Below the pieces are notes generated by a model. It made no database searches, was not told where the DNA came from, and saw only the letters and a program-made list of their open reading frames with translations. Below are positions 23,066-62,703 of a DNA stretch of 64,000 nt, piece by piece. A program made the translations under genes and the position numbers. The DNA lies in NCBI GenBank assembly GCA_033819885.1, contig JAQYUZ010000008.1:434001-498000 (forward strand), written 5' to 3'. Numbering within the stretch: position 1 is the stretch's first letter; every line of letters begins with the position of its first letter. Source of the stretch: Microbotryomycetes sp. JL201. Lineage: Eukaryota; Basidiomycota; Microbotryomycetes.

Positions 23066-24567
23066 CTAATCAATCTCGTCTATGACAGTTACGACAACAC
23101 AAACGTCATCAACCTTGCCTCCCGTCAGATCGTGATGGCCAAACCGCTTTGCTTCAATTTCGAACGGCGTCTTTTTATCGGGCTGCCGTCGCAATACGGT
23201 CAGGTCGACTTTCACAAGCGATCATTCAAACTCCGTAAAACTCGCCTTGAAGCTGCATAGCCTAGCAAAATTGACGGCAACGTCCGCAACAAGTTGAGCG
23301 AACGACCGTGTCTCTCCTTCCTCCTGTGCCTTTGCTGGGTTGCTATCCATCTCGTCGTACCGTTGCTTAACGAGCGCAATCAACTGCTCGAGCTCGAACG
23401 GATGCACATTATCGCTGTACCCGTCAGTCGCAGTCAAGACAATGTCGCCAGACCTGATTTGGGACAGACTTTTCGTTAGACACGTGTGATCAAACAGGCG
23501 GCGACCAAGATTCTAGGAATTTACTTTAACTGAGTTTCAAACAGGTCGGCGTTGCTCGGAAAGTCGATCAAAGCGCCGATCTTAGAAGCGCCCTTTGGCA
23601 TTTTTGAGAGCTGTCGAGGCGCATTGAAAAAATGAATCTGAGCAGGCTGAGAATAAACCACTTTGTATATCGGATCACTCTCGGGCGAAGCGGGCGAGGC
23701 CGGCTGGGGGCGCACGATGATGAATGTCGAATCTCCGAGACTGCAAGCGAATGCTTAGTCTTGTTCCGAACCGCCGCACAGAAGATACAAGCTTACTTGG
23801 CAGCCTTTAATGTGCCGCAATCACTAATTGCCAGGACACAGGCCGTACTCGAACCTTCAGAATGACAAGCTTCGGCTGACAGCGGGGATTGCGTTTGCCA
23901 CTCTGGACTCACCTGCCACAACGCCCTTCTCGCCCAAGACATCTTCGTAAGCTTGCTCTAGGATGGCTTTAGGATCGACAATGCCTCGCTTGACGGCTCC
24001 GTGAGCGTAAAACATGAGCGCTTGACTGAAATGAGACGGGTCAACGCCAGATTCTGTCCACCCTCCGACGCCATCGGCCACTGCCATGACGACTGTTTCA
24101 GATTCGCCAACGTCGTCTCCAGCTTGTTGATCAGCAGCAGAAGGTTGTGCCGAGCCACCTGTTTTCGCTCGCTCGAGCATGAACCAGTCCTCGCCCGCTC
24201 CCCATGGACATTGCTTCAAGACATTGTCCCTCCAGTCAACCAAAGGATGACCTCTTTCAAAGCCTTGCTGTACCCGTGTAGCGTTCCTCGCCCTCCAGTC
24301 GGGCCTGACTGCCGGTTGCTGTTCGTCCACAACGTCCGTCCGCTGCCCAGTCCCGTTCGACTTTGACGATTCAGGCTCGTACCTCTTTGAACCTGGCTTG
24401 CCGTGAAAGCTGTAGGCGGTCGACAGGCGAAAGGACCACGCGCAAGTCGAAGTTGACAATTCGCGGCGTCGTACACCGAAGCAGGAGCGCAGACTAGCAT
24501 TCTTGAGCGCATGTCGACCTGTAACGTCAAGTCGCACCACTTGTACACGGAGGGAGATCGCCTGCAT
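23066..24567 (-). CDS. PTC7: Ptc7-like mitochondrial PP2C protein phosphatase, 417 aa
   Basis: Mn/Mg-dependent Ser/Thr phosphatase of the PP2C/SpoIIE class; yeast Ptc7 acts in mitochondria on coenzyme Q biosynthesis. Minus exons: 24567-23913, 23854-23797, 23740-23525, 23453-23246, 23182-23066. Metal-binding motifs: GEDWFML, VADGVGGW, SGDIVLTATDGYSDN and the final GGKVDDVCVVV. NLGDSTFIIV bridges exons 2 and 3. The first 50 residues are Arg/Ser-rich without acids, ending RRRELSTST, a probable mitochondrial presequence. The start ATG at 24567 is the first in frame. The last intron (23183-23245) can only be removed in phase with a GC donor (GCGAGT), giving SFKPDKKTPFEIEAKR. Confidence 0.9.
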
Positions 24568-24737
24568 CTCCCAACCACGACGCCAGAGCACAAGACGACG
24601 AGCACAATGAAACTCGTCTGATTGCGTTCATCTGATCGCAATAGTACTCTTGAAAATGTACACTGCAACGGTATGATTACAATAATTAAAGCAAAGACGG
24701 TCTATGTGCTCTCTATGATGCAAGGACAAGATTCTGG

Positions 24738-26770
24738 TCAGTTCTCAGCCTCGGCCATCTTGCTCTTCTCTCTGATCTTGTGTCCGTACTTGAACAGCAC
24801 GAATGGGATTGGAACGAGCGCAACAGACACGAAACCGAGCAACGAACTGCCCCAGTCGATGCCAAGTTTCTTGAACATGATGCCGGCAAACAAAGGCGTA
24901 ACGCCACCAATCATACTTCGTTGAAAGTCGTTGCTGGCAAGAACAGACGCGACGTATTTTGGATCTGCAAGATGCACGATCGAGTCAGCGTGGCGTTACA
25001 GAGGCGCCCAGAGAGTCGGTGTCAGCTTACAGGCGTCGGGCAGGTAGCTCAGCACTCCCATAAACATCAACGTTGTTCCGATACCAAAAAATGACGTAGC
25101 AATAACTGGCGCAACCCACGAAGTGCGATTCGCGCTCCACGCAAACCAGAAAAGGCAGATGGGGTAGCACACTGAACCGACGAACGCAGGCGGCTTCAAT
25201 GGGGAAGAGCGAATCAGTCCGACCCGATCCGAGGAACCAAAGCAAGCGAATGAGCCTACCAAACGGTGCTCGGGTGCGAGCATACGTCCTTCACGCTCTG
25301 CCGCCCTGAACCGAGGCACGAAATAGATTCTTGCAAAGACGCGTCTGTCAGCATTGCTCTCTTAAACTTGATCACACAACAGCTTACCTATTCCACACGC
25401 ATAGCCCCGAGTAGCCAATGACAGATCCGACAAGCAAGGACAAGAATGGCAACGTCGAGATGCCGAGTTGCCACCTGTAGCCGATCTCAAACACGAGAGG
25501 GAACGATTCGAACCAGGCGTACAAGACGACGTACACGAACGTGATGTACAAGTTCAAAGCGATGACGATGGGTTCGGTAAAGGTGAACTGGAGCGGCCGG
25601 ACCAAAGTCATGAACAAGATGTCCTTGCCAGTCATGTGTTGCTGTTCAATCTCGCCTTGCGATTTGAGTTGCTGGTTGCCAGTCTTTTTGCGTAGACGAC
25701 GAGCGCGACGGACAAGAATGTTGATGGATGATGTTTCGGGCAGCGCAAAGATGAGAAACACTAAACTGAAGCCAGACAGCCACAGCATGATCCATGCGTG
25801 CCAATGCCAATTCTTGTACTGGATCGCAAAGCCGGACATGACTGGACCTAGAGCGGGACCTGCCGCAGCTGACAACTGTTGTCAAGCCGAAGCAAAGTCA
25901 GTTATAGCTCGCAAGAGACGGCAAGGAATCACGAGTGGACTCACGCCCCAAGCGCCGAGTGCATAAGGTCGAGTCGCAGGTTCGAACATGTCGCTCACAC
26001 TGAAAAAAAACAATCAGCTTGACTTCGCTCGGGCGTTGCGACAGGGGCAGCACTCACGATGCACCACCTGTAGCGAGCGGTGGACTGCCGAAGAACCCTT
26101 GCAAAAACCGGACGATGAAGAACGCAGCAGGACTGTTGGTCAGAGCTGCTGGCACTTGAAGCGCACAGTAGATGGCCAGAGTCAAGATGTAAGGCGCCGT
26201 ACGTCCGATGGCCGGAATCTCGGTGATTGGGCTGAGAACCAACGGTCCGATGGCGTAACCGATCACGAACAGTGAGAGACCGAGAGAGGCAGGAACTTGG
26301 CCCACGCCCAAATCTTGCATAGCTCCCATCAATCCAGGCGTGTAAATTGACGAACCAGCGTAGACTGACGTCGTCATCAAACAAAGGCATCCGGTGACGA
26401 ACGATTTGCGTCCGGCCGACCAGTTCATTGGGTTTTCTGGATCATCAGGACCGTACCAGTCGACAATGTGATCCTTATCTTGGTCTTGATCGCTGTCTCG
26501 ACTGTGAACGGCCGTCGCATCCGAGCTCGAATCATCGCTCGCCACCCTCCCTTCCTCAGCCTGCCTCTCCGTCTCGTTACCCTTCACATTCTTTGTACTC
26601 TTTTCTCCTTGATGAATCGAATGTTTACGTTTTTCGTTCTCGGGCAAGTATTTTGCTGGCACTTTGAAATCGTCTTGCTCTTCTGGATGAGTGAACGCGC
26701 GCTCGCCCGAGGCATGGTACACGACTTGACCAAAGAACGTGTCGCGCATCAACGCGCTCAATCGACCCAT
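24738..26770 (-). CDS. MFS drug:H+ antiporter-like transporter (DHA1), 571 aa
   Basis: Polytopic plasma-membrane exporter of the 12-helix drug:proton antiporter-1 family; the substrate is unknown. Minus exons: 26770-26058, 25999-25945, 25875-25388, 25329-25260, 25193-25031, 24964-24738. A hydrophilic, acidic N-terminal region of about 115 residues is followed by DWYGPDDPENPMNW, typical of Flr1/Mdr1-like proteins. Transport motifs include LSPITEIPAIGR (loop 2-3), RFLQGFFGSPPLATGGAS (helix 4) and the helix 5 antiporter motif GPALGPVMSGF. The central loop is Arg/Lys-rich. Helix 10-12 segments end with a short basic tail. The intron at 25194-25259 is 66 nt and open in frame. The promoter contains an E-box/CRE overlap. 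Confidence 0.93.
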
Positions 26771-27086
26771 GACACTCGAGCTTCGGATCTTATCTGTCCT
26801 GAGCTGTATGGCAACACAACAAAAGAAGAAAAGACGATGCGCCTCTGTCTACACGCGCGACGAGCGATGACCTCACGCGTAGCTCTGGCCGAACCTGGGC
26901 CGCCGCGGGCCTCAGCGATCGCTTTCATCACGACGCGTCTCGCCTCCCGGCAGGGCGAGCGCCAAGATCGCCTCAAAAATAGCTCTAAAGCATACGATCG
27001 CTCCCGATCATCGATCCGGCCACGACATGATCAGCGTCGCAAAAGGACATCACGTGACGTACGTCGTCTACCCCCTCCTTCATTTC
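26771..27086. promoter_or_regulatory. MFS gene promoter with overlapping E-box and CRE-like site
   Basis: 316 bases between the MED16 stop and the MFS start, both minus strand. CACGTGACGTACGTC lies at 27051-27065, combining a palindromic CACGTG with TGACGTAC. It is about 285 bases upstream of the MFS ATG. Such sites bind bHLH and bZIP factors in fungi; use here is inference. Confidence 0.45.
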
Positions 27087-30000
27087 TTACAACATTCGCT
27101 CGCACACATATGAACCCCCACAAGCACACTTTCCTTCAAAATCTCTCTCAAAAGCAGTCCATCTACCCGTTTCTGTGCCCGACAGGGTTCTCTTCTCGGT
27201 CCTGCTCAAACACCTGACGCACACTTTGAAATCGCCTTTTGGTGCGAGTCTGCTCTTGCGGATAAAGTCGATAGACACGACAGACGTATCTTGCGGCACG
27301 ACGGAAGAATTGTATGGCGTTTGCGGAGGCGTCGGAAGGAGATTAGGTAGGAACAAGTTCGAAGAGGACGAAGAAAACGCTGTCGAAAGCTTGGCTGAGA
27401 CGTTCGAGTCGGGCAACGCGAGCGAGTATAGCAAATGTTTCGTTCCTTTTGAATCTATCGAATCTCAAAGAGAAGGGTCAGCCGTCGAATCTACGCACGC
27501 GAAAGCACGAACACAGAGACTGACCCTCCTCAGTCATGGCCGCGTCGAGCTTTGTCAACAAGCTTCTGAATTCGACCAAGTTGAGCCCACTAAAGTCGAC
27601 AACGTCATCCAACACAGTCTTGGCCGTATCTACGACGCTGTTTTGGTGTAACGGAAACGAGTTCAAGAATGCCTTGAAAGACAAGATGTACTCTGTTGCC
27701 CGCAAGAGCAACGAACGCGTCGTTGAGCACAGCAATAGAACATCTCGAGGGGCCGAAGATGATTGGCTAGACGCTGAAGAGCATTCTTGAGCCAGCGACA
27801 GCGCAAAGTCGCAGCACCATGACGCGTAACCGATCAAAGACCATACGGGATCTTGTTTACGTTCACGATCAGCTTCAAAATACAATCGTGTGAAGAAACG
27901 CTGCTCAAACTCACCAGATTCACATGCATACTCGCCCGCTGCTGACCCTCTAGCCTTGACTTCGCATCGTTGAAAGGCGCGGCAAGTCGCCGCTAATTTG
28001 ATGACGTCCAGAGCGATTTCACCACGCAACGCCAGGCTTGGCGTGGCACTGAAATGCAAATCGACGTCAGAATTACCCGTTCCGCCACGTCGCTCCATCC
28101 CGACAAACCTATACGCTGCGGCTGCAACTCCCATCAGTTCAAACGCGAGAGCGCTGTTCTCGAGCATTCTTCCGCTCGGCAACATGTTCTGTAGTAAGTC
28201 ACGAGCGTGATAGATGACGGAGACGATTTCTTCTGCGATCGTGACAGCGTAAGTCCCCACCACAGCGCTTTCTTATATTAGAAACGCACTCTCGTCCTTG
28301 AGCGCCACGATACGACCAATCAGATCGGACTGATCCACCTGACGCGCCAACGAAGCAGCGACCATCAAGCCTAGCGTCTCGGCATTCGGCTGCCTCATCG
28401 GAGTAGGTACAAGGACCGGCGCAGAACGCGTATCAGTCGAACACAGCAAGGCAAGCGCGCCATTCGGTGACAAGCAGCCGTGAATTGCTGCCCAAAACAC
28501 GAATGTCAGTGCGCAATCTTGCGTAGCGTCCGACACAGCAATTCACCTCTTGGATTCGGTACGGCGACATCATCGAATCCGCCGAGTGGTAGTAGCGTGT
28601 TGAGGTCCAACAGCCTGACGGCGTTGGAGATTCGTCCTTCAGGAGAAAGGTTCATGATAGAACATGCTACACCTTGAGGTGTCGGAAATGGATTCGTGCT
28701 GAGAATGTTGACGAGGCCTTTAATTGACGTAGACGCCGCTTTTTGCGCAACCTACAAACTGACAATCAGCCGGCACCCGTGGTCTGTCTCCATACTGTTT
28801 AACGGACCCATTCTTTCGCTCCAACGGCAGCATCACTCTTCTTGCAATCCAATTTAGAGAACGCGCTCGACAAAGCGAGCGGTTCGTTTGACAATGTCCA
28901 GGTTGCAGCGCTAGATTCAACCTGTCCATTCTCTTTTGCTGCGCGCAGCTTTATCAGTTTGGCCACTATGTCGGTCATGGAGCCTGGACGAACCTGTCGT
29001 CGCGACGGCGAGCAAAGAAAGACCTGTTGCGCCATCTTTCATTTCAGCGACATTTCTCTCGATCCAGTGGATCGATCCGAGCTGCCGAAGTAGGGCTGTT
29101 CCTTCTGTATCTGATGGGTCGGACAGATGAACAGGCGGCAACTGCCTGATGATGACGCCTAAAATGACAGCAGTGAGCACTCCGTTTCAGCACCACTTCA
29201 AACGTTGGATCCCGACTAACGTGGTCCATCTGGTAGCATCATCTCAATTTTAAGCTCGGTCAAGTCAATCAATCTGATGATCGAGTCCTTCTTGACGGGT
29301 TCCTCGAAAGTGACTGTCTCGTCGTTACCATCCTGCTGTCCTGCTTGGGTCTCCGCAGCATCGTTTGCAGGACTTGGTTTCGCCGTCGTTCCAAAAGCTT
29401 CATCCAAAGCGCTAAAATCGGCAAAATCGTTGCTAAAGTCATCGGGCGAAGATGCAGCGGTCATCGTGGCAGGATTTGGCACAGTTTGTGCCGTCGCCGC
29501 CGCCGCAGCAGCCGCTGCTGCTGCAGACGCTGCTTTGGAAAGCAAGTTTGACGGCGAGTCGATATCGTCAAACGGATTCCGAGCCAGTCTCGAATGCGTG
29601 GCGATGATGAACGTGGTCTCGCCCTTTTCAGCTCCTTCACAAGAACTCAAGAAATGTCAGCTCGCTAGCCATGCTGCGATCGAAACAGGCAACTCACCAA
29701 AAGACATGTGCGAAGCACCAATCGCAGCTTTCAACACGACTTGTCTCACTGGGCTCGCAACGTGTTCCGAAGCTTCGGCCAATTTCAACTGCTCACGCAG
29801 TGCATCTGACCCGCTCGGAGCTCCACCAAGGGTTATGCTGGTGGTCAAGCTGTTCGGACTTGGACCTGCGGTGGGCATTCCGTCGACCAGATTGGCAACG
29901 AGTGCGTCCATAGCGTTGTTGGGCGATGTTCCGAGCGGATTTGCCGTCATAGCGGCATAGGTCGATGGAGTTGGGAGTGCCGTGACGGCAAGTTCAGTTT

Positions 30001-31088
30001 GTGCCGTTGCGGGCGACAGTGGGACAACTGCTGTCAACGGGACGAGAGGCACGCTTCGGGGAAGGTGGACAAACATGGCCTGTACACGACGAAGATGAGT
30101 GCAGCACGTCTGGCATGTGCGCATCATGACTCACCTCTTGAGTCGAGAGCACGGCGACGAACGCCGCACCGTTGACTGGAGGGGAACGACTCGGCACGCT
30201 CGTCAAAGGTTTGCCACTTTGGGTTTCTGGCGCCACAGTGTACTGCGCCGAGAACACATCAGCACCATCGCAGCTGTGTGAGAGGCAGGGCGAACAGGCA
30301 CGTACGTCTTTCTGCTCACCCAGCCACTTGACGGTGACGACGCGTTTGACGCTGTCATTTCGAGGCTCTGCGTAGATCGATCCTCGCTCGTGGCCCGTCT
30401 GTCGAGCCTGATCCAAAGCTTGACCAAACCTGTCCGCACGTTCTGACCACACAATGTCCCACTCGTTGATGCAGGATGACGAGCCCTGCTCCCATACCGT
30501 GATCAAGTCGAGGTTGTCGGTAGACGAGACTGCCAACAAATAAGCCGAGTCTGGGGAGAATGACAAGAGCGACACTTGGCCAGAGCTGTCGGTGTGTTTG
30601 TGACGGGGAGCAGTGCCATCCGGTGACAAAGAGTCCAAAGGTGCATGCTTGAAGACAGGCACCGGCACATCCAATTCGAACGACAGTGCGCTCTTTCGTG
30701 GCGCAGTCAATCCACTGAGGTGCTGCACCGTGATTCGGGGTTGAGATTGAGCAGACTCGACAACGAGTGCCGATTCTGTTGCTGTCGCCGTCGTCGTCGT
30801 CGACTGCGGCGGACAAGCGACGGCGATCAGATTCGAGCGGGACCACGCCACGGGGCTACATGCACAGCCAGAGCACGATCAGTTGGATGTATCGCGGCTG
30901 ATAAGATTGCGCTTGCTTGCTCACGTCTTCGTGTTTAGCGACACGGCGCGTGCCGCCGACTCGACCCACTCGGCACCACGTCCTGCAGCGTCCTGCGAGC
31001 CAGCTACATCGTAAGCTGGGTTCCTCCGGAGCCTCTTTGTTGGTCGGTACGACGCAGACGAGGGGGGCGCGCCGACTCGACCGTCCAT
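27087..31088 (-). CDS. MED16: Mediator complex subunit 16 (Sin4/Med16), 1138 aa
   Basis: Tail-module subunit linking activators to RNA polymerase II in the nucleus. Minus exons: 31088-30925, 30855-30306, 30242-30135, 30079-29698, 29634-29221, 29158-29024, 28983-28808, 28751-28547, 28487-28290, 28232-27525, 27463-27087. The N-terminal half starts with VAWSRSNLIAVA and has WD-like strands (VSLLSFSPDSAYLLAVSS, TVKWLG). An Ala-rich insert lies near 29490-29535. The helical middle includes NPFPTPQGVACSIMNLSPEG and SPNGALALLCS. The C-terminal exon ends in a Cys-pair module, CVRC and CACGG, resembling the zinc-binding end of Med16. The identity rests on overall layout and these pieces; another large WD-helical protein is possible. 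The intron at 30243-30305 is 63 nt and open in frame; that at 28984-29023 is 40 nt. Confidence 0.72.
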
Positions 31089-31205
31089 CACATGCGATCC
31101 CACAATGTGGCCCAAGCTCAAGGTTGTCCGCCGAGTCGACTTGTCAACTTTGGCGCATTACAGGGTGTACATGTCACTACTACGTCAAATCGTGTTTGGA
31201 TACGT

Positions 31206-32843: not shown

Positions 32844-32906
32844 GTTGGGAATGCTAAAGCGAAGGAAAGAGAAGCAGGGCTCTGCTCGAGGGCGGCGCTC
32901 TGCGCA

Positions 32907-32914
32907 ATGACGTC
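32907..32914 (-). promoter_or_regulatory. CRE-like octamer ATGACGTC upstream of the LEA-like gene
   Basis: ATGACGTC lies 64 bases upstream of the LEA-like ATG (32843, minus). It matches the ATF/CREB half-palindrome. Chance occurrence is not excluded, since the same octamer occurs in some coding sequence here. Confidence 0.35.
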
Positions 32915-34873: not shown

Positions 34874-37649
34874 ATGCGCGGCGGCCTCGAGTACTCTGCC
34901 TACATGCCAGCGACGTCTGTCGACGGCTCTGTGCTCTCGTGGACGGCGTACGCAGATGAGCGGCGGACGATCAGTTCGGGCCAGGCCGACTCCGGCCCCG
35001 GAACACGCTCAGCCACTGTATCGCATGCACCGACCGAGACTGCTCAGTCTGAGCGCGACGCCGGCAGCTTGGCGCAGGCGCGCCGCGATCAGCACAGTGT
35101 CTCGCCGGTCGATCCGCCGCAGTCAACCACTATCGACCCGGCCCTGCCAGCACGCAAGAAGCACAAACACTCACCCTCAGGCACAGCCGCCGTCTCAGGC
35201 ACTCAGGAAACGGGCCTCTCAGGCGGCCAGGCAGACGAGCACACTGCAGACAAGGTCAGTGTCGCATTCAGGTCTCGGCCGATTCAACCGAGCCTCGGCG
35301 CTGACTTGCATCTCTCGCCTTGATCGAAACAGTCTTGCAAGACTTGCAGGTCAGTCACCAGGCACTCGTCCCTCTCGCGCGCCATATTGACCATGTCCGC
35401 TCTCTGCCACTCTGGAAATTCTCTTTGCCAAAAGGCAACGCAAAGTCAGAGTCAGTCGCGCTGTCCCCGCCCCGCCACATCAACTTGATGCGCACGGCTC
35501 GCCCGCTGACACGACCTCCCGGGCTCCCACAGTGTGACCGCAAGTGGCCCAAGTGCGGCAGGTGCACGCTCAAAGGCCTCGACTGTCACCTCAGCCAGCT
35601 TGTGCCTGTCGCGTTCGTCCACAGCCAACCACATCCAGCCGAGGTCCGCGTCGCAGAGCTCGAAGCGCGAGTAGGCAAGTTGAATTGGCAAAACGCGTCG
35701 GTTTGAATGCACTGCTGACTCGTCGCCGTTCACGCGCAGCTTCGCTCGAACAAGACATTGCCACCCAAAACTTGTTCCTGCCCCATGCCGCTCAATTCGT
35801 CGAATCTATCGACCTTGCCGCAAAAGGCGGTGACGCTGATGCGGCATTCGAATGGATGAAGCACAGAGAGACAGCCGATGCTGCGTCAACGTCGAGCAAA
35901 GCCGTTCAAACGGCGGCACAGACCCGCGTCGAACTCGCAGGCCAGCTCAGCGCCGAAACCCGCTCAAGAAACCCAAGCTTGCAGCGATCGTTCTCTCTTC
36001 ACCTCTTGGAAGCATTCTTTGCAGCGTGCTGCTCGAGCCTGCCCGTTTTTCGGCCATGGCACACACGTCTGCCGACTTTGTTCAACCTGCGCGACCTAGA
36101 TGCGCCGGACCGCGTCGCCGTCGCCGTGTTTTGTGCTATCGGTGCCAGATCAACGCCTCACTCTGCCTTGCTCGGTATTGCCAACGCTGCATCGGAGACT
36201 ACATCGCCAAGCACGCTCGCAATGTCGGGCATACGCCGCGAACAGGCTTGTCGAGCACTGAACGCAGAGGCAATCGACTTGTTCGAAAAGCTCTCGATTG
36301 CCGACGACACGTCCGAAAAGACTTTGAACGCGACAATGGCTCTCATGCAGAGCTGCGTCTTTAACGAGCTCGTTCCGAGGCGTAGCCGGTCGATGGTCAG
36401 GACCGCTTTCGGACAACTGAAAGACTTGCTTGACCTGACCGCTACAGACTCGGAGCGCAACCAGCTCGTCATGATGTACGGACTGCCCTTACTGCATGCC
36501 GACTCTGTCACGTCCGCATACGGTCGCAAAACTCCCTTGATCACGCAGCAAGATCTCGACAGTCATTTTGGTGTCATCAGACTGCCAGACTTGTCGAGCG
36601 GGACATTATCGTTCTCAGTCTCGAACATACTTGGCTCGGACCTGGATGACGAATTGGATCATGAGCGCTTGACGAAAGCGAGCATGGTCATTCTGCGGTG
36701 GATTGTCCAGACTCTGCGCGAGTTTGCCCGTATTTCTTCGCGTGAGCTCTTCGCTCTTTGTCCTCGTTGGCCTCCAAGAGCTCAGATCTGTCTTGCAGCT
36801 CGTGCCAGTCACAGTGCTCTTCCAATGGACGTCATCGTGTCACTATGGTCTGCCCTTGATCAAATCCATGCTTCTGTACAAAATTTGCAGCACTTTTTAG
36901 TCAACCTCGACAAGCTGCCGCCAGGTTGCGAGAACGACGGCTGTCAAGACCTGCACTTGCGATTCATCACGAGGATGAGCCGAGAAGTCGATAACGTGAC
37001 GTCACTCGTTCATTCGTTGCTCGATGAGAGGAGAAGTGGATCGCATGGGATGCCAGAGCAAGTTGACCAAGAATGGTACGAGGAGAGCGAGAAGCGAGTC
37101 AGAAAGAGTTTAAAGCTTGCTGCGTGAGTTTGTGTCGAAAAGACATCTTGTTTGTCGAGCTCTCTGCTGAAGGCTTCTCCTTCTTTACCGTTTCGCTCGA
37201 TGTGGCAGGTTCTATTTCGAGGTGACTTGTTCGAGTTCCCTTCTAAATAAACCCGACCATCTGACCACTGTCTTGTCCACCGTTAGGCTTACTCGATCAG
37301 CTCAGATCCCCACCAGACCTACTACCTCGCATGGCAACTCGAACTCATGCCAACCTGGACTCTGTTAGCCGTTCAAAGACACGGAGAACTCGATGGACCC
37401 CTCACGGCAGATCTCGAACTGACAGAAACTGAGCTTGACTGGATCGAAAAGGGCTTGAAAGTCGCAATGTCTTACCATCCCGTCGCTGAACGAAGATTGG
37501 CTCAAATCAAAGCGGCTAGACGTCTACCCAGGCCAGACAGTCAGTCTTTGTTTCTGCCTTCTTTGCTCTCAAACTACATCGTTGGTCGCTATACTGACCT
37601 TTTTAGGAATCGCTATCGAACCATGCAGGCCTGCCATCGAGAGCTAATC
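34874..37649 (+). CDS. Zn2Cys6 fungal transcription factor, 748 aa, eight exons
   Basis: Binuclear zinc-cluster DNA-binding protein; targets unknown. Exons: 34874-35254, 35333-35349, 35435-35450, 35533-35674, 35740-37123, 37209-37221, 37287-37539, 37609-37649. The cluster has exact spacing: Cys129-x2-Cys132-x6-Cys139-x6-Cys146-x2-Cys149-x6-Cys156, with sequence SCKTCRQRKVRCDRKWPKC. It is assembled from the 17-nt exon 2, the 16-nt exon 3 and exon 4. A short coiled-coil (VAELEARVASLEQDIA) spans the exon 4/5 splice, which requires a GC donor (GCAAGT at 35675). The long exon 5 holds a helical region like the fungal middle homology domain, and a 13-nt exon encodes part of LAAFYFEAYSIS. Start is ATG 34874. 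Confidence 0.9.
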
Positions 37650-38028: not shown

Positions 38029-40269
38029 CTACAATTTGACATCATCCATCTTTTGACTAATGTCACCGTCTTGTTGGTCATTGTGGTTCTCTCCAGGTGA
38101 TTCAGTCACCTCTGTCAAAATAGGTGCTGACGAGGTTGTGGCTGCAGGAGGGGGAGGTGACGAAGGTATTTGTCTATGAGTCTCGTCGGACGTTGCCGAT
38201 CCAATATCTCCGACGTGCTCTTGTTGAGCTGAAGATCCAATATCGACTTCAGTAGGTTCGACAGATTCTGAAATCGGCTGGGCGGCAGGAGACCTCGGTG
38301 GAAGCGTAGGCGGCGCACCCTGCAAAAACCGAACGAACGGAACACGAAAGTCAGTCAGTCATTGTACAGCGGATCCCAGAAAGCAAAGCTATCTCGCCTT
38401 GTTGGCATCATCAGCAGCTGCAACAGCCGCTGCCGCACCCAGATCCCCTCGGTCACCTTCTGCCGTACCGTTTTGCAGTCTCGCTTCCTCTTCAGCCAAG
38501 CGTTGCGCATTAGCCTCTTGCATCTCTCGCTCCGCTTGTTCTCGTTCAGCAGCCAAAGCAACTTGAGGATCTTGATCGTCTCCAACCACGGCTGGGACCT
38601 CTGCCTTCTTAGTAAACTGTTTGCGCGCGAGACAAGAGTTCACAGCATTGTCAATCGACTGCACAGAGACGCGCGTATTCGTGCACGGGAGGAAACCAAC
38701 CTTTTCAATGTCTGTCCACCACGCGCTCAACTCTTCCCAGCTCTTTGCCCTCAAAACGTATTTACCATCGGGTGCGTCGACCGTGAACATCGCTTCTAAC
38801 TGTTTGCCTTTGCTACCGACTTCAGGCGTAGGCATAGGTCCCAAGGTGCAATGCCTCAAGGGCAGAGACACCGCAGGATGTGAGATGGGTGACGTCGACG
38901 AAGCGTACGAATGCAAATGACCTGACGGCGACAAAATCCAGAATCCAGTCGCCCAAGTCTTCAAGAACCTCTTTTGACGTTCGAGTACACCTTCTCGAAC
39001 AGGTTGAGTCAATGGGTCTTCACGACCTGTGTACTCGATGTCTTCAAGTCTTCGAGGGGCAGTGTCGGCTGGGATGACGTGATGGAGCTTGCTGAAAAAT
39101 GTCCATTCGGCATCTGGCGCGATCGTGTCGACTTCGCCACTGAGCAGCATCGAGCGCTGTTGATTGCCAAGGTGCAGGTTGGAGCTGTTCCGACAAATCG
39201 TGGTCAACGTCTTGACATCAAATCCTTCCGAGGCGGCTCACTTTGCAGACTCAAAGACTGTCCAGCAGCGCCCAATCTCGCGAAAGACCTCTTTCTCCTT
39301 CGCTTCTGTCCGTTCTGTCCAATTGATGACGGCCGCGAGCATCTCATTCTCCTTTGTGACTTGCTGCCTGAGTTGCGCTTCGACGGCCGCGCGCAAGATG
39401 ACTGGATCTTCGCCGCAAATTGTCTCTGCGTGCGAGTCGGGCCCGAGGGCGTTGCTCAAGGCTGTCAGGCAGACGTTCGAGGCGTCCCTGACGAGAATCA
39501 AGTCATGTCAATGTTGGCTCATTTCGTGTTAATGACGTTCGACACACCTTTCTTTCGTGACCGCGTCAGCCAATTTGCCCAGTTCCTTTTCCATGTTGGC
39601 AATGTGGGATTTGATGTCAGGCCGCTGTGCACCACCGAGTTCGAGTGAAGCATATGGTCAGCTAACTGTGTTCTTGCTGCCAGATCTCGTGCTCGACTGA
39701 CGAGCTTTTTGAGTGGCACAACGACGTTCTTGCTCAGATTGCGGGCGAACGCTTGATGATCTTCGCCCATCGCTTGCGTGGCGTCTTTTGTCATCTTGAG
39801 CAAGTCACCCCAGCCGTTAGCCGACACGTCTTCGGCGTCAGACTTGTGAGTGGACGTCGTTGCCGCCGGCAGGAACAAGCTCGACTCTTGTAAAGGCGCC
39901 TGGATGATGCCCGGTCCCGCCAGCTTTGCAATAGCAAGTCCATGGTTGTTGTGCGCAGTCGCCAGGCCTGGTGTCAACATGCACAAATCAGTTATGGTTG
40001 GCTTTCAGGCGCGAGACAGTTCGCCATTTAGCGATCGCTGCTGCCGGATGATGGCGGGGCTCACCGTCAAAATAGTTGACAAGTGATTTTGTGATGCGCT
40101 TAACTTCGTGACACCTGTTGATGAGGACCGAATGAGGTGCAGTGCCGCCGCTCGGCAGCGGATCCGTCGGCGCTCCCGCGTTCGGCGTTCCTGGCGTTGT
40201 TTGAGATTGCGCCGACGGTGGTGGCGACTTTGCCGACGTGACACTCGACGACGAGCCGTATCTGAACAT
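38029..40269 (-). CDS. SLM1: Slm1/Slm2-like BAR-PH protein, 623 aa
   Basis: Eisosome-associated PI(4,5)P2-binding protein; in yeast Slm proteins bring TORC2 to Ypk kinases under membrane stress. Minus exons: 40269-40065, 39967-39702, 39624-39548, 39487-39242, 39184-38398, 38319-38029. A Ser/Pro N-terminus leads into an F-BAR-like helical domain (SLVNYFDGLATAHNNHG, NLSKNVVVPLKKLRPDIK, then QQVTKENEMLAAVINWTERTE in the fourth exon). The PH domain in exon 5 runs from KRFLKTWATGFWILSPSGHL to WEELSAWWTDIEKVGF with the expected C-terminal Trp. A Glu/Ala-rich coil and a Pro-rich acidic tail follow. The last intron (38320-38397) appears to use a GC donor (GCGAGA). The 5' end faces the FunK1 gene across 284 bases. 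Confidence 0.85.
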
Positions 40270-44345: not shown

Positions 44346-44349
44346 GAGC

Positions 44350-46692: not shown

Positions 46693-51312
<4,620 letters not shown>

Positions 51313-51617: not shown

Positions 51618-53209
51618 ATGCTTTCGAGGACCTTGCTTCGCTCTGAGCTGTTTCAGCGGACCGTCACGGCGTCTGTGCCTCGTGCGATCGCCGTTCGGTC
51701 GTTGTCGACGACGTCGAGGTTGCTGTTGACCGCTCCCTCGCGACCTAACTTGGCCACTGGTTCAGTAGCTCAACAACCAGGCTCCAAGTCTATCAGGGAG
51801 CTCGGCAAAAACGCAAAGGAAGAAGTACAAGGCGTAGCACAAACCGTCTCGGACGTCATCTCTGGAGGAGGCATCGCAGAGCAACAGAAACAAGTCCTTA
51901 CAGACAAGAAAGGTGACCATGGTGGAATGGGAACTCTTACAGCTGATCTGGTAAATTGTCACGGCGGTCCCTTTGCTTTCTGTTTGAACAAACTTGGGCA
52001 GACCAATGAAGCAAGGCGCGAAGGCTGACTACTGTACGATGATGGGGTACAACAATTGTAGAACGCAGTCAAGAACCTCGGTCAAAGCATTCCAAAACAC
52101 GCATTGATCTGGGGAGGCATGGGCTTGATTCCGTACGCTGGTACGGCCGCCGCCACAGTTCACCTTGCCCGTCAAGCTTCAATCGCCGTTGACGCTTCGC
52201 GTGCGTGCCATCAACGTACTTCAATCAGAAAATTGAATTGACTTGCTCTTCTTGATGCCATAGGCTCGACCGGTGTCGACCCGGAAGCAGCGCTGCTCGT
52301 TTTGTCCCAAGTCCAACATTTGCAGATCGCTTACGGCGCAGTCTTGTTGTCATTCCTCGGTGCTATTCACTGGGGCTTTGAGGTGCGGCCGCCACTGGTT
52401 GTGCTACAGTCTCATGAATCGACACGCTAACGTTCGAGCACAAATTCTCAGTTCGCCAAGTACGGCGGCGTGCTCGGCAACACACGATATGTCCTCGGCA
52501 TCGTACCTTGCGTTGTTGGATGGGGATCTTTGCTCTTGGCGCCGCAATATGCCCTGCTGACGCAGTGGGCGGGCTTTTTTGGAGCTTGGTACATTGACCA
52601 ACAGGCGACAGTTCGTGGTTTGACACCGAGGTGGTACTCTACCGTCAGTCCTCAACAACGAAACATCGCGGCCACCCTGCTTGTGATGCTGATTGCTTCA
52701 GCCCGAACAAACAGTATCGCTTTTGGTTGACGGCGCTTGTCGGATCGTCAATCTTGCTGACTTTGGCCGGCGAGAGTTACTTTGGGCCTGACGCAAAGAC
52801 GATGAAGACAAAGTCCGAGGTTCTCGCCATGGCCGAGGGCAAGTCTCGCAAGCCAACCATTCCTAGAGGGCAAGTCTTTAACGTGTCAGTAGAGCGATTG
52901 CGTCGGGAGCTGATTCTTGGTCGAACACTGCAGTGAATCTGCCGACCTGGGAGAGATGAGAGTTGCCAAGACCAAGGAGAACGCAGACGCTTTTGTGCAG
53001 TTTTCCAAGATTGACAAGGAGCAAGAGGAGAAGGAAGCAAAGGAGCAAGAGGAAAAAGAGGCAGAGGAGCAAAAGAAGCGGGAGGAAGAGGCAGTGCGTA
53101 ATCACAAAGCTTGGCCAAATTTGTCCGCGCTAACATTCGTGTGTTGCAGACCAAGGCTGAGCGCGAAGAGAAGGCGAAAAAGGGAAGAGCACAGAGTGGA
53201 CAATACTGA
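51618..53209 (+). CDS. Mitochondrial DUF3429/TMEM69-like membrane protein with coiled-coil tail, 385 aa
   Basis: Function unknown; DUF3429 proteins are small multi-helix membrane proteins found in mitochondria and bacteria. Exons: 51618-51950, 52062-52200, 52264-52382, 52452-52643, 52715-52869, 52934-53093, 53150-53209. The N-terminus (MLSRTLLRSELFQR to RSLSTTSR) is a clear presequence. Hydrophobic segments include HALIWGGMGLIPYAGTAAA, YGAVLLSFLGAIHWGFE (the family signature), YVLGIVPCVVGWGSLLLA and FWLTALVGSSILLTL; GLTPRWY is also typical. The tail (exons 6-7) is a Glu/Lys-rich coiled coil, unusual for the family. Exon 5 joins exon 6 only through a GC donor (GCAAGT at 52870), which avoids a stop at the start of the alternative reading. 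Confidence 0.85.
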
Positions 53210-53486
53210 ACGGAACAGAATAGTTGAGAAGCTTTCAAGCATGATCATTGTTTGGCACATGACTGTATATTTCCTTTCGAACGTTTCGGCGAAGGGCTGA
53301 GAAGGCCCGAACAGGTCACGATCACCCCTTCCCATCGCCCTCTGCCTAGCTGACAAGCGGCCCATTCTCAGTATCTGAACCGTCCATCTCCTTCGTAGCC
53401 TCTAGAGCGTGTCGGGTACAGCGTCGACGGCTCGCGGATCCTCCGCAACTTTTGCTCATCGCCGACGAGCAACAACATTGACGAGC

Positions 53487-55240: not shown

Positions 55241-56249
55241 GCAAAAACCTTGCTGCATTCAAGTTCTTGTGAAGTGACGTAAACAACGAGGTTCTCGCAT
55301 TCTGATCTCTCGCGGGGGAACCTGCATGTAGACCTGACCAAAAGCGAGAGCGAATATCTGTCTGCAATGCGGCATACGATTTCTCGGCAAGCTTTAGTTG
55401 GTGTCTGATCCGATGAACCGGGCAAAAAGGATGCAGCATTGAGAGCAGAAGAATGCAAGCCGTCACCTGCGCAGTCTGTGCTTTGTTCATCGGTCGGGTT
55501 TGCGAGGAAACTCTTTTGCCATTGTCGATCTCATGTACCTCCTTCTCTCGTTTCCTGATTGTTCGCGACGACAGCGAATCGTTCAATGTTTCGCGTCGGA
55601 TTGTTTCCTGACGGTCAGAGGTTTGCGCGAGGCTCGCTTTCAATCGCCGTCGAGTATTTACTGTCCCATTCGACAGACTTTAGAGATAATTGAGGGTCCG
55701 CTCGGGGCACACCCGCGGATTGCGAAGAGGCAGGAAGGCCTGGGCCCTTGTCTTTTAAAATGAAGGCCTGGACCTGTTTGCGCAAAAGATTTCGGGCTCA
55801 CGCGGATGTTTTCGATCGCGATCGGCATTTTGGCGGGTACATACGGGCTGTTGTGCGGGCGGTGCATGACTGACACGAAAATCAGGCGTATCAGCTGCGG
55901 CCCGGCGCCGAACGAGGACTGTCCGATCGCTAGCCACGCTACTCTTTTCAAACACACAAGGTCCGCTGTCTTCACGTGCAGTTGATCGAAACCCGATTGT
56001 GCACAAAGACATCAGACTCGAGCAGAGGCGACAGGGAGATTTCAAGCCACCTTGGCGCGACGACAGTTGCGTCAACCCCTTCCTCACCACACCTGCTACA
56101 ACACCTGGCGGAGTAGCACCGATCCCTCGTGATTCGTCAACCTATCCTGGTCTTTGTCAGCGGCAAGCTCGGGGGAAGACGTCAATCTCGTTTGACAGAG
56201 CGAGTGCGTGCACGCCAGTCTGCGCCGATACACCTTGAAGCTGGATACA
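55241..56249. other. Intergenic, promoter and leader of SKN7
   Basis: About 1 kb with no supportable gene. Minus-strand frames here (for example 55458-54961, overlapping the Hsp31 gene) are shadows or chance. The length suits a regulatory gene with a long leader. Confidence 0.55.
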
Positions 56250-57833
56250 ATGTCAGACTACCACCACTACAACGGAGGCGCCTATCAGCAGCCGCCCCAC
56301 GCCGCGCACCACCACCACATGCTGCGCGGCCAGCAGCAACCGGCCCCACCACCGCAGCACGCTGCGCCAGACCAGCTCGACCAAGCACCGACGACGCGCA
56401 AGCGAAAAGCTGCACAGCACCAGCAACAGCAGATGCACCAACAGCTCGAAGACGACGACGAGGACGAGCCGAAACCGTCAAAGGACAAGTCTGGCGGATC
56501 AGACTTTGTCAAAAAGCTGTACAAGTGAGCACTCTCTTTCGTCCCTCATAGTCGTAAAAGCCCACGATCGGTCTCGACGCGTGTCTGACAACGTCCTTCC
56601 CGTCGCCGCAGCATGCTCGAAGGCGGCCAGTATCCAGACGTCGTCAGCTGGGGATACACAGGAGACTCGTTCGTCGTCAAGGCAGGTTCAAGGAGATCAA
56701 ACTGCAGCTTGGACTATCGCTCTGACCCGTCTGTGCGGCATCTAGGACATTAACGCGTTTACGAAAGAGATTCTTCCGCTTCATTTCAAACATTCCAACT
56801 TTTCGAGCTTTGTCAGGCAACTCAACAAATATGATTTTCACAAAGTAAAAGGAACAGAAGATAGACCGAGCCCATACGGAGAGCATGTGAGGGCTCCTCG
56901 TCGGATTCATGATTAGCCGCTACTGACTGTCGACGTATGATCCAGTCCTGGGAGTTTACGCATCCAGAGTTTAGGTCCGACATGCAGACGTCGCTGGAAA
57001 ATATTAAAGTAAAGTGGTGACGCCAGTATGATCATCTTGTCTCCCAAAAGGCTGACATCGGGACCCTTTTTCAGCGCAAGGCAACGTCCAAAAAGTCAGG
57101 AACGACGGCAAGGAAACAAGTTGCAGACAGCCAATCACCTGGGCCGTCGTCGATGAACAGGAACAGTGACGTGCAACGTCAATTGGATCAGCTGCACCAT
57201 CAGTACCAAAGCATGACCCAGCACATGAGTAATATTCAGCAAGACTATCAAGTCGTCATGAACGAAATGATGAACTTTCAGCGTAACATGGTCGCGCAAG
57301 ACCAACTCATGCAAAATTTGATTCAATACCTGATCAACCTTGAAGCTGGTGCGTGTCTGTTATGGGGGGTATGGTGACTGCAGCGCGCATCATCATGACT
57401 GACCTTTCGCAAACTTTCGTGTCGTAGATCAGAACGCGGCGACGACGGGCAGCGGCAACACTGCGAATGCGCAATCAGATTTTCAACCGTCGCAGCAAGC
57501 ACAAAAGCTCATTTCGTCATACACCGAAGTCGCCAGAGCGTCCTATGATCAGATCGCAGACCTGTCAAGGCGGGCGTCCGTGTCTGGCAGCGGTCTGCCA
57601 CCGATCCCTTTACCTCCTCCAGGGTTCGGTCAACTCGACATGCGAGGAGGAGCATTCAGGAGAGATGACGAACCGCCCCGCAACGACGGCTACGGTGATC
57701 ACGAGCAGCACAGATCAGCAAGCGCCCAAGGTCAAGCTGCCAGACAAGCTCAGGAACATCAACGTCAACAACAAGCACGTGACCATGCGTCCGCAGGCCA
57801 AATGCGGCCTACTTCTGCTCAGCAACAGCAGTC

Positions 57834-57870
<37 letters not shown>

Positions 57871-59149
57871 CAACAGCAGCAGCAGCAACAACAAAACCAA
57901 GGCAGTGCGAGCAGGACTGACTCGCCGATCGGGCAATTCCAACCCCGACACTTTCAACATCCGAGCGCTTCGTCCGGCAGCAACGAACCTGGTCAAACAC
58001 AGACTATGGTCACTGCTGAAGGTAGCGGCAGCAGCCGTAGACAGACGTACATGCCCGGTTGGGCTGTACCGCCGCGCGTCTTGCTGGTTGAAGACGATGC
58101 CGTTTGTCGCAAGCTTTCAAGCAAGTTTTTGGAAGTGTTTGGTTGTCAGATTGACGTTGCTACCGATGGTGTCAGTGCCGTCAACAAGGTATGTACGAGC
58201 AGACGGTCCTCTTTCTTTCGGGCTTTGGCTGGCAAAACGAGATCTGACAAGACGCGGACACGCGATCGCAGATGAACATGCAAAAGTACGACTTGGTTCT
58301 GATGGACATTGTCATGCCAAACCTTGACGGCGTATCTGCCACGTCCCTCATCCGTAAATTCGACCCAATGACGCCCATCATTTCAATGACGAGCAACTCT
58401 GGACCGAATGACATTATGACATATTTTTCACATGGTAAGTCGACAAGACGCGCGGGCCATTCGGTAGTCGTACGGCTCGCTGTGGCACTATTGTTGACTT
58501 TTCGGTTTGTTCCGGCGCTATTGTAGGTATGAATGACATTTTGCCGAAACCGTTCACAAAGGAAGGACTACTCGGCATGCTCGAGGTGCGCCCTTATTCT
58601 GGTGAAATGTATGGCAGATTGGATTTTGTTTGCTGACAACACGCGTATCGATGCTATTTCAGAAACATTTAATTCACCTAAAAGTGATGCAACAAATGGC
58701 CGAGATTCCGAGAGCACTCGGTTTTACAGATAATCAAATTCAAGACGCGTTGGCCGTTTCGACTTTGGGAGAAGAAGGCACGATCATGAACCCGTTCTCA
58801 TCCATGGGCATATCTGGTACGTTGCCTGCGGACCGCGTTTGTAAACGAGGCTGCCGTCGATACTGACGGCGCGTGGGATGTGGCGACAGACAACGATTAT
58901 GTCGAGATGCTGCAAGGTATTGCGCTCGAAAAGAATGGCAAGCGCGAGCTCGAAGTCGTGTCGACGATGGATCCGCGCGAAGGCAAGCGCATGAGGTTCC
59001 AAGAGGGTCAGTCCTTTGTAACTTCAATCCCACCCGGCTCGTTGTTTTTCCTTTTCTTGCACTTTTGTATCGGCGGCGCAAAAGGGCACAAGCTTTTCGC
59101 TAACTTGTGTGTGTCTGTGTCTTTGGTTTGTGCAGTTGGTGAAGCCTGA
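56250..59149 (+). CDS. SKN7: Skn7-like HSF-domain response regulator, 696 aa, 11 exons
   Basis: Output factor of the fungal two-component phosphorelay, acting in the nucleus on oxidative, osmotic and wall stress. Exons: 56250-56524, 56612-56681, 56746-56886, 56946-57008, 57075-57348, 57428-58188, 58272-58434, 58527-58585, 58663-58816, 58890-59006, 59136-59149. A His/Gln/Pro-rich N-terminus precedes the HSF-type DNA-binding domain ([41 protein letters not shown]). A coiled coil follows ([12 protein letters not shown]). After a Gln-rich linker comes the receiver domain: LLVEDDAVC, phosphoacceptor Asp in [13 protein letters not shown], the conserved Thr in SMTSNS and Lys in PKPFTKE. Exons 2 and 3 join only through a GC donor (GCAGGT at 56682), restoring SFVVKDINAF. 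Confidence 0.94.
57820..57900 (+). repeat. CAG/CAA repeat encoding polyglutamine in SKN7
   Basis: A nearly pure CAG/CAA tract encoding over 20 Gln with one Ser interruption, between the coiled coil and the receiver domain. CAA interruptions occur toward the 3' side. Length is likely variable between strains (inference). Confidence 0.9.
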
Positions 59150-59371
59150 AAAAGGATGCGCGCGGTCAAGAATGGCATGCTCTTTCTGTATAGTTTGTCC
59201 TTTATAGCCCGTCTCGGTTGTTTTTTTCCACCTAGGAGAGGGCTTTGGTGTGAGTCTTTGTGTCAAGTGTCGTGTTGCAAAGTAGTCTGTTCCTTGTTTG
59301 CGGCACGTGATCTCCACTCGCCTTTGACGGCGCGCGGCCGGCGGGATTTTTTTTTGACTTTTGAGACGGCC

Positions 59372-60466
59372 ATGGACGCTGCTCACGTCGATGCTCTGTG
59401 GCGTGAGTTTGTGGGAGCTGTTCGCAAGAAAAGTAACGATATGAGGACGCTCACCGTGACCCACCAGACACTCACGTGTACGTGCTCGGTTTTCTGCGGT
59501 CTCAAGGTCTCGACAAGGCTGCGGACGAGTACCAGACCCAAGTCACCTCAAAGCTGGACAAGGCTTTTAAAAAGCACAGGAAACAAAAGTCGAAGCGAGC
59601 TGTTGCTGACGCTCGATTGACGGACGACGAGGACGTTTGGACGACGTTGGCGACGAAAACGCATCACAACAAGGATACAGTAGACGATGACGAGACAAAG
59701 CCAGGTGACGAATTGGTTCGACAGAGTAAAGAATGTACAGGTGCAGAACTTGTGCCGCTCGTAAAGGCCAAACTCGCTTTGCAGTGAGTTTCTCTCTTTC
59801 TCTCTCGGGGTTTGGCCCGAATCAAAACAGTGTCGAAATCAGGGCTCCGCTGATAATGACGCTCATTTGCATTGTTTTCATGTTTCTTTCGGGCGCAGAG
59901 GAGGAGCGAAACAATCAACCGTCGTCGGGACAGACTCGGAATCGAGCTCGTCCAACAGCGATTCTGATAGCAATAGCAGCAGCAGCAGCAGCAGCGATGA
60001 CGAAGATGATTCCGACGGCGACTCTGACGATGAGTCTGACGCAAAAGACGTTTCAGACCCCGCGTCTGAAGTTGCAGTCGCAAATTTGGTTCACGAAGCA
60101 GTCGAGGGCGTGAAAGCGGTAACGGACAAGGTTGTGAAAGCAGTCGTGCCCGGCAAGAAAGATCAAGACGACGATAAAGAGACCAGCTCTGATTCTGAAT
60201 CGACTGACTCGAGCGACTCTTCGTCCTCTTCTGATGATGACGAGGAAGAGCATGAGGAGAACAAGGCAGAGGAGACAGAGTCGTCGACAACCGGTGGAGA
60301 AGAGGCCGTTGCAGAGCTTGTCATCCGTAAGTTTGATCGTGATAGACCGCGTGTTGATGTTTTGCGATGCCAGCAAACTCATGTCTGCTTTCTTCCATTC
60401 AAAGCGAGCAAAAAGCGCAAGGCTTCGGACAGCTCGTCGTCATCTTCGGACAGCGACAGCAGCTCG

Positions 60467-60498
<32 letters not shown>

Positions 60499-61168
60499 TT
60501 CCGACAACGACAAACCGCCAACGAAAAAGACGAAAACGGCTGATCGAGCATCCGCCGTACCCAAGCATATCAAGCAAGACGTGTCAGCCGCCTCTGCAAC
60601 TACCTCAACGACAGGCACACCTGTTAGATCTCTGTCTAGCGTGGCGAGCGGCCGGGATTCTCCTGCGGCGTCGTCGTCAGGATTCAACACGCCGTCCGGT
60701 AGCGGCGGCGGCGGCAACGTCAAAAACAACAACAACAGTGGCAAGAAGAACCAGAACGAGAGATTTAGACGTGTCAAAGCCGAGGACGTTAAGTTCCTGG
60801 ATGACCGATTGAGAGACAACTCGTTTGCAGCAAGGGTGAGTTTCCGTGAGACATGATTTTTGCTTTCCGTGCAATCTCTTATTTAAACAAAGTCCTGACG
60901 CTATTTTCCATCGGTGGCGTGTCAATAGAATGGTGGCATGAGCGATTATGGCAGCAAAGCATCTGCTGATTTGATCGTCACTCGAGGCAAGGGCTTTACC
61001 AAGGAAAAGAACAAGAAGAAGCGGTCAGTCTCGATGTCACTGGATTTTGTAGAGATGCAGGTAATCGCTGACATTTCATTCACTGATTAACTGCGTGGTC
61101 TCGTGTGCAGTGGGTCGTACAGAGGTGGCGAAATTACGATGCAGAGTCATTCGATCAAGTTTGATTGA
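59372..61168 (+). CDS. SRP40: Srp40/Nopp140 (NOLC1)-like nucleolar phosphoprotein, 452 aa
   Basis: Nucleolar chaperone of snoRNP biogenesis, heavily phosphorylated by CK2. Exons: 59372-59402, 59468-59783, 59899-60326, 60405-60835, 60929-61023, 61111-61168. The N-terminus has a LisH-like segment (YVLGFLRSQGLDKAADEY). Two acidic Ser/Asp tracts follow (about 59938-60050 and 60421-60505), alternating with Lys-rich pieces as in Nopp140. The C-terminus is the conserved SRP40_C domain: RRVKAEDVKFLDDRL, NSFAAR, SYRGGEITMQSHSIKF, with DLIVTRGKGFTKEKNKKK before it. The first coding exon is 31 nt. The end is TGA 61166-61168. Identification of the C-terminal domain is secure. Confidence 0.93.
60421..60505 (+). 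repeat. TCG/TCA repeat encoding polyserine in SRP40
   Basis: Tandem TCGTCA trinucleotide pairs give a run of about 16 Ser, flanked by Asp-Ser pairs that are CK2-type sites. Confidence 0.85.
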
Positions 61169-61454
61169 ACTGCCCACGCATTTCGAGTTCCCTGATCAGA
61201 GAGCAGGTAGTCTGGGCTGCAAACGATATGCTGCGTTTGCTTTCATGTTATACGACCTCTTTGCAATCTGGTGTCACACAGGGCACGAGCACGTCGAGCG
61301 ATTTCCTTTTATGCTGATCTGTGAGCGGATGAGAAAAGGATGTAACTTGAACAAATTTATTATGCAGCGTTGCTTTCACATGACGGATTTCGTCTCTTGT
61401 TCGTATCTCACACACCTTCTCTTTGTGCATTGCCGACGCGGAAGCACCGACCCA

Positions 61455-62703
61455 ATGACGGGTACGAGACCGGATACGGCTTGCGCAATGTGCGACGTGA
61501 CTGACCATTTCGTTGTCCGTAACCTTCCCATATGGACCTTTTAATACGCTCGCGTGCCGGTCCTGTTCATGCCGTTCACTTGCTGGTCGGCCGCCGCACC
61601 TGCTCGATCCGAATGTGATGTACGGACGGACGTCTGACAGACTACGAGGAAGAAAGGAGATCAGAACTTGAAGTTCTAGAGAGCATCTATCCTGACGAGC
61701 TGACCGGTCCGTCTTTTGCTAGGGTCACTTTGCAGCGTGACCACAGCTGATCATCTTCTGTGCACAGTCATCTCTCAAGACCAACTCAAAGTCAAAGTTG
61801 AACCCGAGACGCAACGTGAAGATGACCCTCGTCAGTCGACTCGGGAATGATTTGTTTGTTGCAAGCAAATCTAACTTTCCTCTCTCTCTCGCTCTGTGCG
61901 TCTGTCTGTGCATGAACGGCTGGTAACAGACATCGTTCAACTGGTCATCAAGTACACACCGACATACCCAGACGAGATTCCATTGATCTCTATCGAGCCC
62001 GACGTCGGCACGTTTGACGATGACGAGTTGATCGAAATCACCCGACGGGTCGATAGTCTTGCTCGAGACCAATTGGGAATGGCCATGGTGTACACTCTGA
62101 GTCAACAGTTGAGGGAAGTGCTGAGTGATGTTTTGAAAGCAAGAAGAGAGAGGGAACAGAACGAGGCCAACGAACGAGCGAGGTTGGAAGAAGAGGCGAG
62201 TCGAGTCGTGTTCGAGTGAATCGTCTCAGACTGACTGTTTGGTCTTGATCAAGGCCGAGGCGAAGAAAACAAAGGGGACGCCAGTAACGAAAGAATCGTT
62301 TGAACGGTGGAAGGTCGAGTTTGAGCGCGAGATGGACGAGCTCGCCAAGCGGCAAGAGCTTGAACGGTTAAAGGCCTTGCCTTTGAAAGAGAGGGACGAG
62401 CTCAAGAAGCAAATGGCCAAGCCGACGGGCGAGTTCTGGGGCGTTTTAGGTTGGCCTCTTTCACGTCTGACGGATTTGCCACCTTGGTTTGTTTTGACAG
62501 GCCGCGAGTTGTTTGAGAATGCGACGAACGCAAGCTTGATTACGAGTGACGCAGCATACGTGGATGACGACGATGACGCTGTCGAGGTCGACTATTCCAA
62601 GTATGACCGTACTGCCGGATTCGCCGACGACAGCGACGAGGACGAGGAATCTCGTGGTGCACGGCCCAAGATGGGCGACCTGAGTGATGATGATGACGAC
62701 TGA
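61455..62703 (+). CDS. GIR2: Gir2/RWDD1-like RWD-domain protein (DFRP2), 259 aa
   Basis: RWD protein; yeast Gir2 binds Gcn1 and the DRG-type GTPase Rbg2, tuning general amino-acid control. Exons: 61455-61461, 61641-61706, 61768-61830, 61930-62195, 62254-62428, 62501-62703. The RWD domain has LEVLESIYPDEL and the signature YTPTYPDEIPLISIE, ending VYTLSQQLREVLSDVL. A charged coil follows, then the DFRP2 block KGTPVTKESFERWK and KPTGRELFE, and an acidic C-terminus with Asp runs. Only 7 coding nt (ATGACGG) lie in exon 1; this gives MTDYEEERR, the family start. Two introns (62196-62253 and 62429-62500) fit best with GCGAGT donors, though a GT alternative exists for the second (donor near 62450). 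Confidence 0.85.

Follow-up and report, generated by a model that had tools for sequence, protein, structure and literature searches.

The closest described systems are the U2-type GC-AG introns of other fungi, for which the published text gives a mean share of 1.009% (Frey and Pucker 2020, PMC7072748). The values stated for single species are 0.77% in Fusarium graminearum, where AG flanks the GC and AAGT is frequent in the intron (PMC3577648), and 1.7% in Trichoderma longibrachiatum (PMC4324775). The MYB genes of Ganoderma lucidum and G. sinense are described as having five and six GC-AG introns, in 41.7% and 38.5% of MYB genes, respectively (PMC7407476). In the algae Aureococcus anophagefferens and Micromonas pusilla the share is given as 39.6% and 22.2%, with a genomic G+C of 69.5 and 65.9% and a canonical U1 5' end (PMC3033335).

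The introns analysed here, from the basidiomycete Microbotryomycetes sp. JL201, have the same GC donor, AG acceptor and strong following context as those described for fungi, but a predicted share of 4.7 to 7.7%. Ganoderma is likewise a GC-AG-rich basidiomycete, although the published account concerns one gene family and ours a 324-kb genome sample; these MYB genes give some precedent for a fungus in which GC-AG introns are frequent. Both algae, as described, combine a high share with a canonical U1, as is the case here in a fungus with a window G+C near 54%, and the puzzle posed by this combination is common to the three organisms. We found no fungal genome-wide share this high in the article text searched, and prior publication is possible. 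What is new is the case, a rather strong elevation in one fungus, while the intron type itself is well known and only its frequency is unusual. From gene models and homology we infer, with considerable confidence, that these introns are of the ordinary U2-type GC-AG kind and are excised by the normal spliceosome, and that they account for about 5 to 8% of introns compared with about 1%.

Frequency of GC-AG introns in the genome sample

The window is the whole stretch of DNA analysed, 64,000 nucleotides (C78:434001-498000) of a 17.15-Mb genome in 92 contigs. Its genes and its dense, short introns are of a kind expected in a fungus, probably a basidiomycete. The sample comprises the window with 200 kb upstream (264 kb) and 60 kb from three other contigs, giving 324 kb or about 2% of the genome. 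Genes were predicted with a spliced, two-strand, codon-boundary Viterbi finder that uses donor, acceptor and branch matrices, intron lengths and a 4th-order coding model. Training was iterative, on the window and the 200 kb upstream, with GT donors only; GC and other dinucleotides were offered afterwards. As GC donors were absent from training, this later offer is a fair comparison. The trained finder describes donors that resemble G/GTGAGT, a CTGAC branch, a CAG acceptor and a median intron of 63 nt. GA, GG, AT, TT and CT were offered as controls for GC. A raw motif count without gene models (G-N-R-N-G-N with a branch and YAG) was non-discriminating, at 228/282 per strand for GC, 196/242 for GA and 195/206 for GT. 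Scanning the window for tRNAs and for Rfam families gave no match.

With seven donor classes in competition over the 264 kb and their shares refitted, the 507 introns comprised 469 GT, 37 GC and 1 CT, with GA, GG, AT and TT at 0. When each class was instead offered alone, with its share fixed at 5%, there were 37 calls for GC and between 5 and 9 for each of the five controls; with the share fixed at 1%, there were 23 for GC and 0 to 2 for each control. Eight column permutations of the GC donor matrix gave 5 to 12 calls, with a mean of 8, versus 37 for the real matrix, which suggests that up to about 8 of the 37 calls could be due to chance. The gain exceeded 2 nats in only 21 of these 37, and three appear misplaced or wrong: 35667 (replaced by 35675 below), -196271 (gain of 0.16 nats; negative positions lie upstream of the window) and -140418, in a class-II DAHP synthase whose model with the GC call lacks a segment that we presume to be present in this enzyme. 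Three of the largest control-class gains (8.78, 8.37 and 4.81 nats) sit where GC answers better (-133397, -127311); the exception is a CT call at -67203, with 3.10 nats, which does not coincide with a GC-better intron.

The window count of the finder, 7 GC donors in 111 introns, matches the original prediction of some 6% in roughly 115 introns; it includes 16803 and 35667 (35675 in the corrected Zn2Cys6 model) and omits 62429. The finder predicts GC at 30 of 396 introns for the 200 kb upstream, and at 10 of 103 for the 60 kb on the three other contigs, which lay outside training. When GC and the five controls were each started at 1% on the same 60 kb, GC took 5 of 101 introns, GG 1 and CT 1, with zero GC in one of the three regions. 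Among genes scoring at least 10 over the 324 kb, GC accounts for 45 of 583 introns, or 7.7% (CI 5.8 to 10.2), under the fitted prior and for 27 of 574, or 4.7% (CI 3.3 to 6.8), under a cautious 1% prior. The predicted share in the 324-kb sample, between these two values according to the prior, clearly exceeds the mean of about 1% for fungi.

Conceivably, the GC introns are a regulated group with inefficient or alternative splicing, as GC donors pair more weakly with U1 at +2. We regard this as unlikely, since at least one predicted GC intron occurs in 30 of the 96 predicted genes, several of which, for instance those for MetRS, RPA1 and septin, have housekeeping functions, and since the introns are not clustered per gene (two or more in 5 of 90 genes, versus 6.0 expected). 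Within the upstream sequence, 24 kb picked post hoc (-147.2 to -123 kb, L007-L009) hold 12 predicted GC donors among 68 introns, four of them in one Ste23-like gene.

Donor choice in the window and homology across the junctions

All seven GC hexamers named in the original prediction are present, those at 23245 and 38397 on the minus strand and the others on the plus strand. At each site, all frame-compatible donor and acceptor pairs were scored exhaustively, and the best GC pair was compared with the best GT pair in nats. The predicted features of the window are as follows; nats are the lead of GC over the best GT pair.

16750..16803, minus strand: additional GC-AG intron in a cyclin-like gene, missing from the earlier list; GCAAGT, 54 nt; 7.2 nats; deletion gain 6.76
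23183..23245, minus strand: GC-AG intron in a Ptc7-like PP2C gene; GCGAGT...CAG, 63 nt; 5.6 nats; retention not open
35435..35450, plus strand: 16-nt microexon completing a Zn2Cys6 cluster; both flanking introns begin GTCAGT
35675..35739, plus strand: GC-AG intron in the same Zn2Cys6 factor gene; GCAAGT...CAG, 65 nt; 9.8 nats
38320..38397, minus strand: GC-AG intron in a Slm1-like gene; GCGAGA...CAG, 78 nt; 9.0 nats; retention not open; junction beyond the BAR and PH domains
52870..52933, plus strand: candidate GC-AG intron in a DUF3429 gene; GCAAGT, 64 nt; ambiguous; junction outside PF11911
56682..56745, plus strand: GC-AG intron in the HSF-type DNA-binding domain of SKN7; GCAGGT...TAG, 64 nt; only 1.9 nats
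62196..62253, plus strand: GC-AG intron in a Gir2-like RWD/DFRP gene; GCGAGT...AAG, 58 nt; 9.1 nats
62429..62500, plus strand: candidate further GC-AG intron of the Gir2-like gene; 72 nt, with an open frame; GC donor not required

The GC donor had been held to be required at seven sites. Five of these are well supported, with a predicted intron that has a GC 5' end and an AG 3' end and whose removal restores the frame; 52870 is ambiguous, and at 62429 the GC donor is not required. In the Ptc7-like gene, the exon downstream of the predicted intron aligns with the C-terminus of the PP2C structure 6ae9, with gaps near the junction. In the Zn2Cys6 factor, the upstream exon is fixed by the frame of the zinc cluster (PF00172, 36.3 bits). 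The finder placed its own donor at 35667 because it missed the 16-nt microexon. With the microexon read by hand, the spliced reading gives CKTCRQRKVRCDRKWPKCGRC, which is matched by PF00172, and 35675 is then clearly the best donor.

The predicted GC donor of SKN7 is decided by homology and not by the pair score. The HSF domain scores 114.0 bits with the GC donor versus 79.3 with the best GT parse, which deletes 13 residues at a cost of 35 bits, and the alignment to 5d5w, listed just as a 'putative transcription factor', is gapless at the junction SFVVK/DINAF. In Gir2, the donor at 62196 has the top gain among the 37 GC calls (9.87 nats), and its omission loses the DFRP_C match, which at 27.1 bits lies just under the cut-off of 27.5. 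The DUF3429 donor has a rival, GTCAGT at 52885, situated 15 nt downstream in the same frame and with the same acceptor, which would give a 49-nt intron; GC leads by 1.3 nats, and the choice stays ambiguous because GTCAG donors are common here. For Gir2 62429, retention scores 7.2 versus 7.0 for splicing, and DFRP_C gives 27.1 bits retained versus 23.6 spliced, both under the Pfam cut-off of 27.5. The frame is open on retention and the Pfam score is 3.5 bits higher, so that the earlier wording was too strong for this site.

Alignments to solved relatives, of which the best one or two were printed, cross seven GC junctions without a gap. One is that of SKN7; the others lie in the 200 kb upstream:

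Septin: one GC junction, NNEG/CWEPI
MetRS: two GC junctions; no gap at either, and a one-residue gap a few residues before the first
RPA1: one GC junction, MLRG/WYDTEG
Naa20: one GC junction, DEDGF/DMRKPL
Ste23: one GC junction, DDRQY/RLLTL

We scanned 23 of the 30 GC-bearing genes against Pfam, several of them as windows, and scored GT-only rivals in nine genes. The GC model was higher than the best GT-only model in 9 of 9, the sole contrary comparison being that of Gir2 62429 with retention. In addition to SKN7, the scores were:

Septin: 352.8 bits with the GC model, 339.3 with GT only
Nucleotide-sugar transporter: 297.1 bits with the GC model, 279.8 with GT only
MetRS: 243.5 bits with the GC model, 221.6 with GT only
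CwfJ: 104.9 bits with the GC model, 92.1 with GT only
HTH_DNAJC9: 96.1 bits with the GC model, none with GT only
Naa20 acetyltransferase: 50.8 bits with the GC model, 38.0 with GT only; the lower score is due to the rerouting of upstream exons, and the GC junction is outside the domain
zf-C2H2: 48.3 bits with the GC model, none with GT only
Gir2 DFRP_C: 27.1 bits with the GC model, none with GT only

These results bear on the explanation that the GC donors are a modelling artefact, the real donors being nearby GT sites or the introns being retained. Such an error is possible singly, at 52870 with its GTCAGT alternative and at 62429 if the sequence is retained, and GTCAG donors, being common here, are easily overlooked. 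As an account of the whole set it is improbable: at four sites of the window (Ptc7, Zn2Cys6, Slm1 and Gir2 62196) the best GT pair falls 5.6 to 9.8 nats behind, GT parses lose conserved residues or domains in SKN7, Gir2 and genes outside the window, and control dinucleotides receive almost no calls in full competition. The original prediction was of real GC-AG introns at several times the fungal 1%. An independent model reproduced this elevated share, also on unseen sequence, with homology in support at several junctions, from which splicing of the introns may be deduced.

Donor composition and the U1 snRNA

We compared the 45 GC donors with the 501 GT donors that survive the same prior penalty. 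C at +3 occurs in 0 of 45 GC versus 113 of 501 GT donors (P 2.7e-5), while the search matrix allots 22% to C at this position. The GC donors more often carry A at +3 (24/45 versus 94/501, P 9.6e-7), T at +6 (36/45 versus 276/501, P 0.0014), A at +4 (40/45 versus 374/501, P 0.03) and G at -1 (29/45 versus 241/501, P 0.04). A at -3 is also commoner, but does not reach significance under this matched control (P 0.07, 45 versus 501), and G at +5 is about equally frequent in both. With +2 omitted, GC donors pair with the 5' end of U1 at a mean of 6.2 of 10 positions and GT donors at 5.1. The GC donors are a distinct class, which differs from GT donors in ways that the search matrix would not yield. 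A YTRAY motif is present within the last 50 nt of 38 of 45 GC and 429 of 538 GT introns, a comparison that is not fully independent since the finder scores the branch motif.

The 5' end of the U1 gene (C7:112439-112616) is AUACUUACCUUG, canonical opposite +2. The match scores 31.1 bits versus an Rfam gathering threshold of 69.5; there is agreement with the family at the 5' end, and the first loop is similar. A genome search for a second or variant U1 at E up to 10 returned this single match, with the canonical ACUUACCU. The exact pattern ATACTKACCTTG occurs at 8 genomic places, four per form; one is the U1 gene and the other seven are raw pattern matches. The N-terminal finger of U1C, read by eye across an intron beginning GTCAGT, presumably has an ordinary sequence. 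With a canonical U1 and an ordinary-looking U1C finger, the splicing machinery looks normal. A U1 changed at position 7, or a second U1 variant, that pairs with GC donors is invited by the high GC-AG share and by the U1 score below gathering; the canonical form of the lone match makes it very improbable, and the extra pairing of the GC donors would then be needless. Base-call or assembly errors or polymorphism turning GT into GC, in favour of which nothing was found, are hardly credible, as they would not avoid C at +3 (0/45) and would make other dinucleotides (the five together, 1/507).

In the reading that we favour, of ordinary GC-AG introns and a normal spliceosome, a U1 snRNA whose 5' end is canonical would recognise the 5' site. 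Stronger pairing elsewhere would make up for the pair lost at +2, with a purine at +3 that is often A, with A at +4 and T at +6, and with G commoner at -1; the G at +5 would be retained as in GT donors. The high rate may stem from a neutral T-to-C change at +2 that is tolerated in donors that are otherwise strong, in agreement with the known behaviour of GC-AG introns.

GTCAG donors and the reading of positions +2 and +3

The GT donors have a peculiarity of their own. Of the 486 introns examined in the 264 kb, 84 start with GTCAG and have normal lengths, and over the 324 kb C is found at +3 in 122 of 538 GT donors (23%), mostly as GTCAG. This C is a mismatch to U1 that is apparently rare elsewhere. 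Two explanations were considered and rejected: introner-like repeats, since intron-to-intron BLAST among the 486 introns gave 0 hits at E up to 1e-3, and a variant U1 for GTCAG donors, since the lone U1 match at E up to 10 is canonical. GC at +2 and C at +3 were never combined in the 45 GC donors.

Separately, the U6 snRNA gene (L028 1501-1683; G000:C63:52479-52661) contains an apparent intron directly after ACAGAGAA, with mRNA-type ends GTAAGA...TTAG. The U2 gene of Rhodotorula hasegawae reportedly carries an mRNA-type intron.

The canonical U1, the 5 to 8% of introns with a GC donor and the 23% of GT introns with C at +3 together tentatively raise the possibility of a lineage in which the reading of +2 and +3 is generally relaxed, although we think this rather doubtful. 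In such a lineage, the spliceosome would put up with a single mismatch in the U1 helix and depend on positions +4 to +6; an altered protein of the U1 or U6 snRNP, or an RNA modification, could underlie this.

Some gene predictors ignore GC donors; according to the text of one report, they go unrecognised by Augustus (PMC5677156). Should GC make up 5 to 8% of donors, a substantial share of the gene models of this genome would be wrong, as at least one GC intron is predicted in about a third of its sampled genes. A fungus that combines a normal U1 with a relaxed reading of +2 and +3 would also offer a natural experiment on the requirements of the spliceosome at the 5' site.
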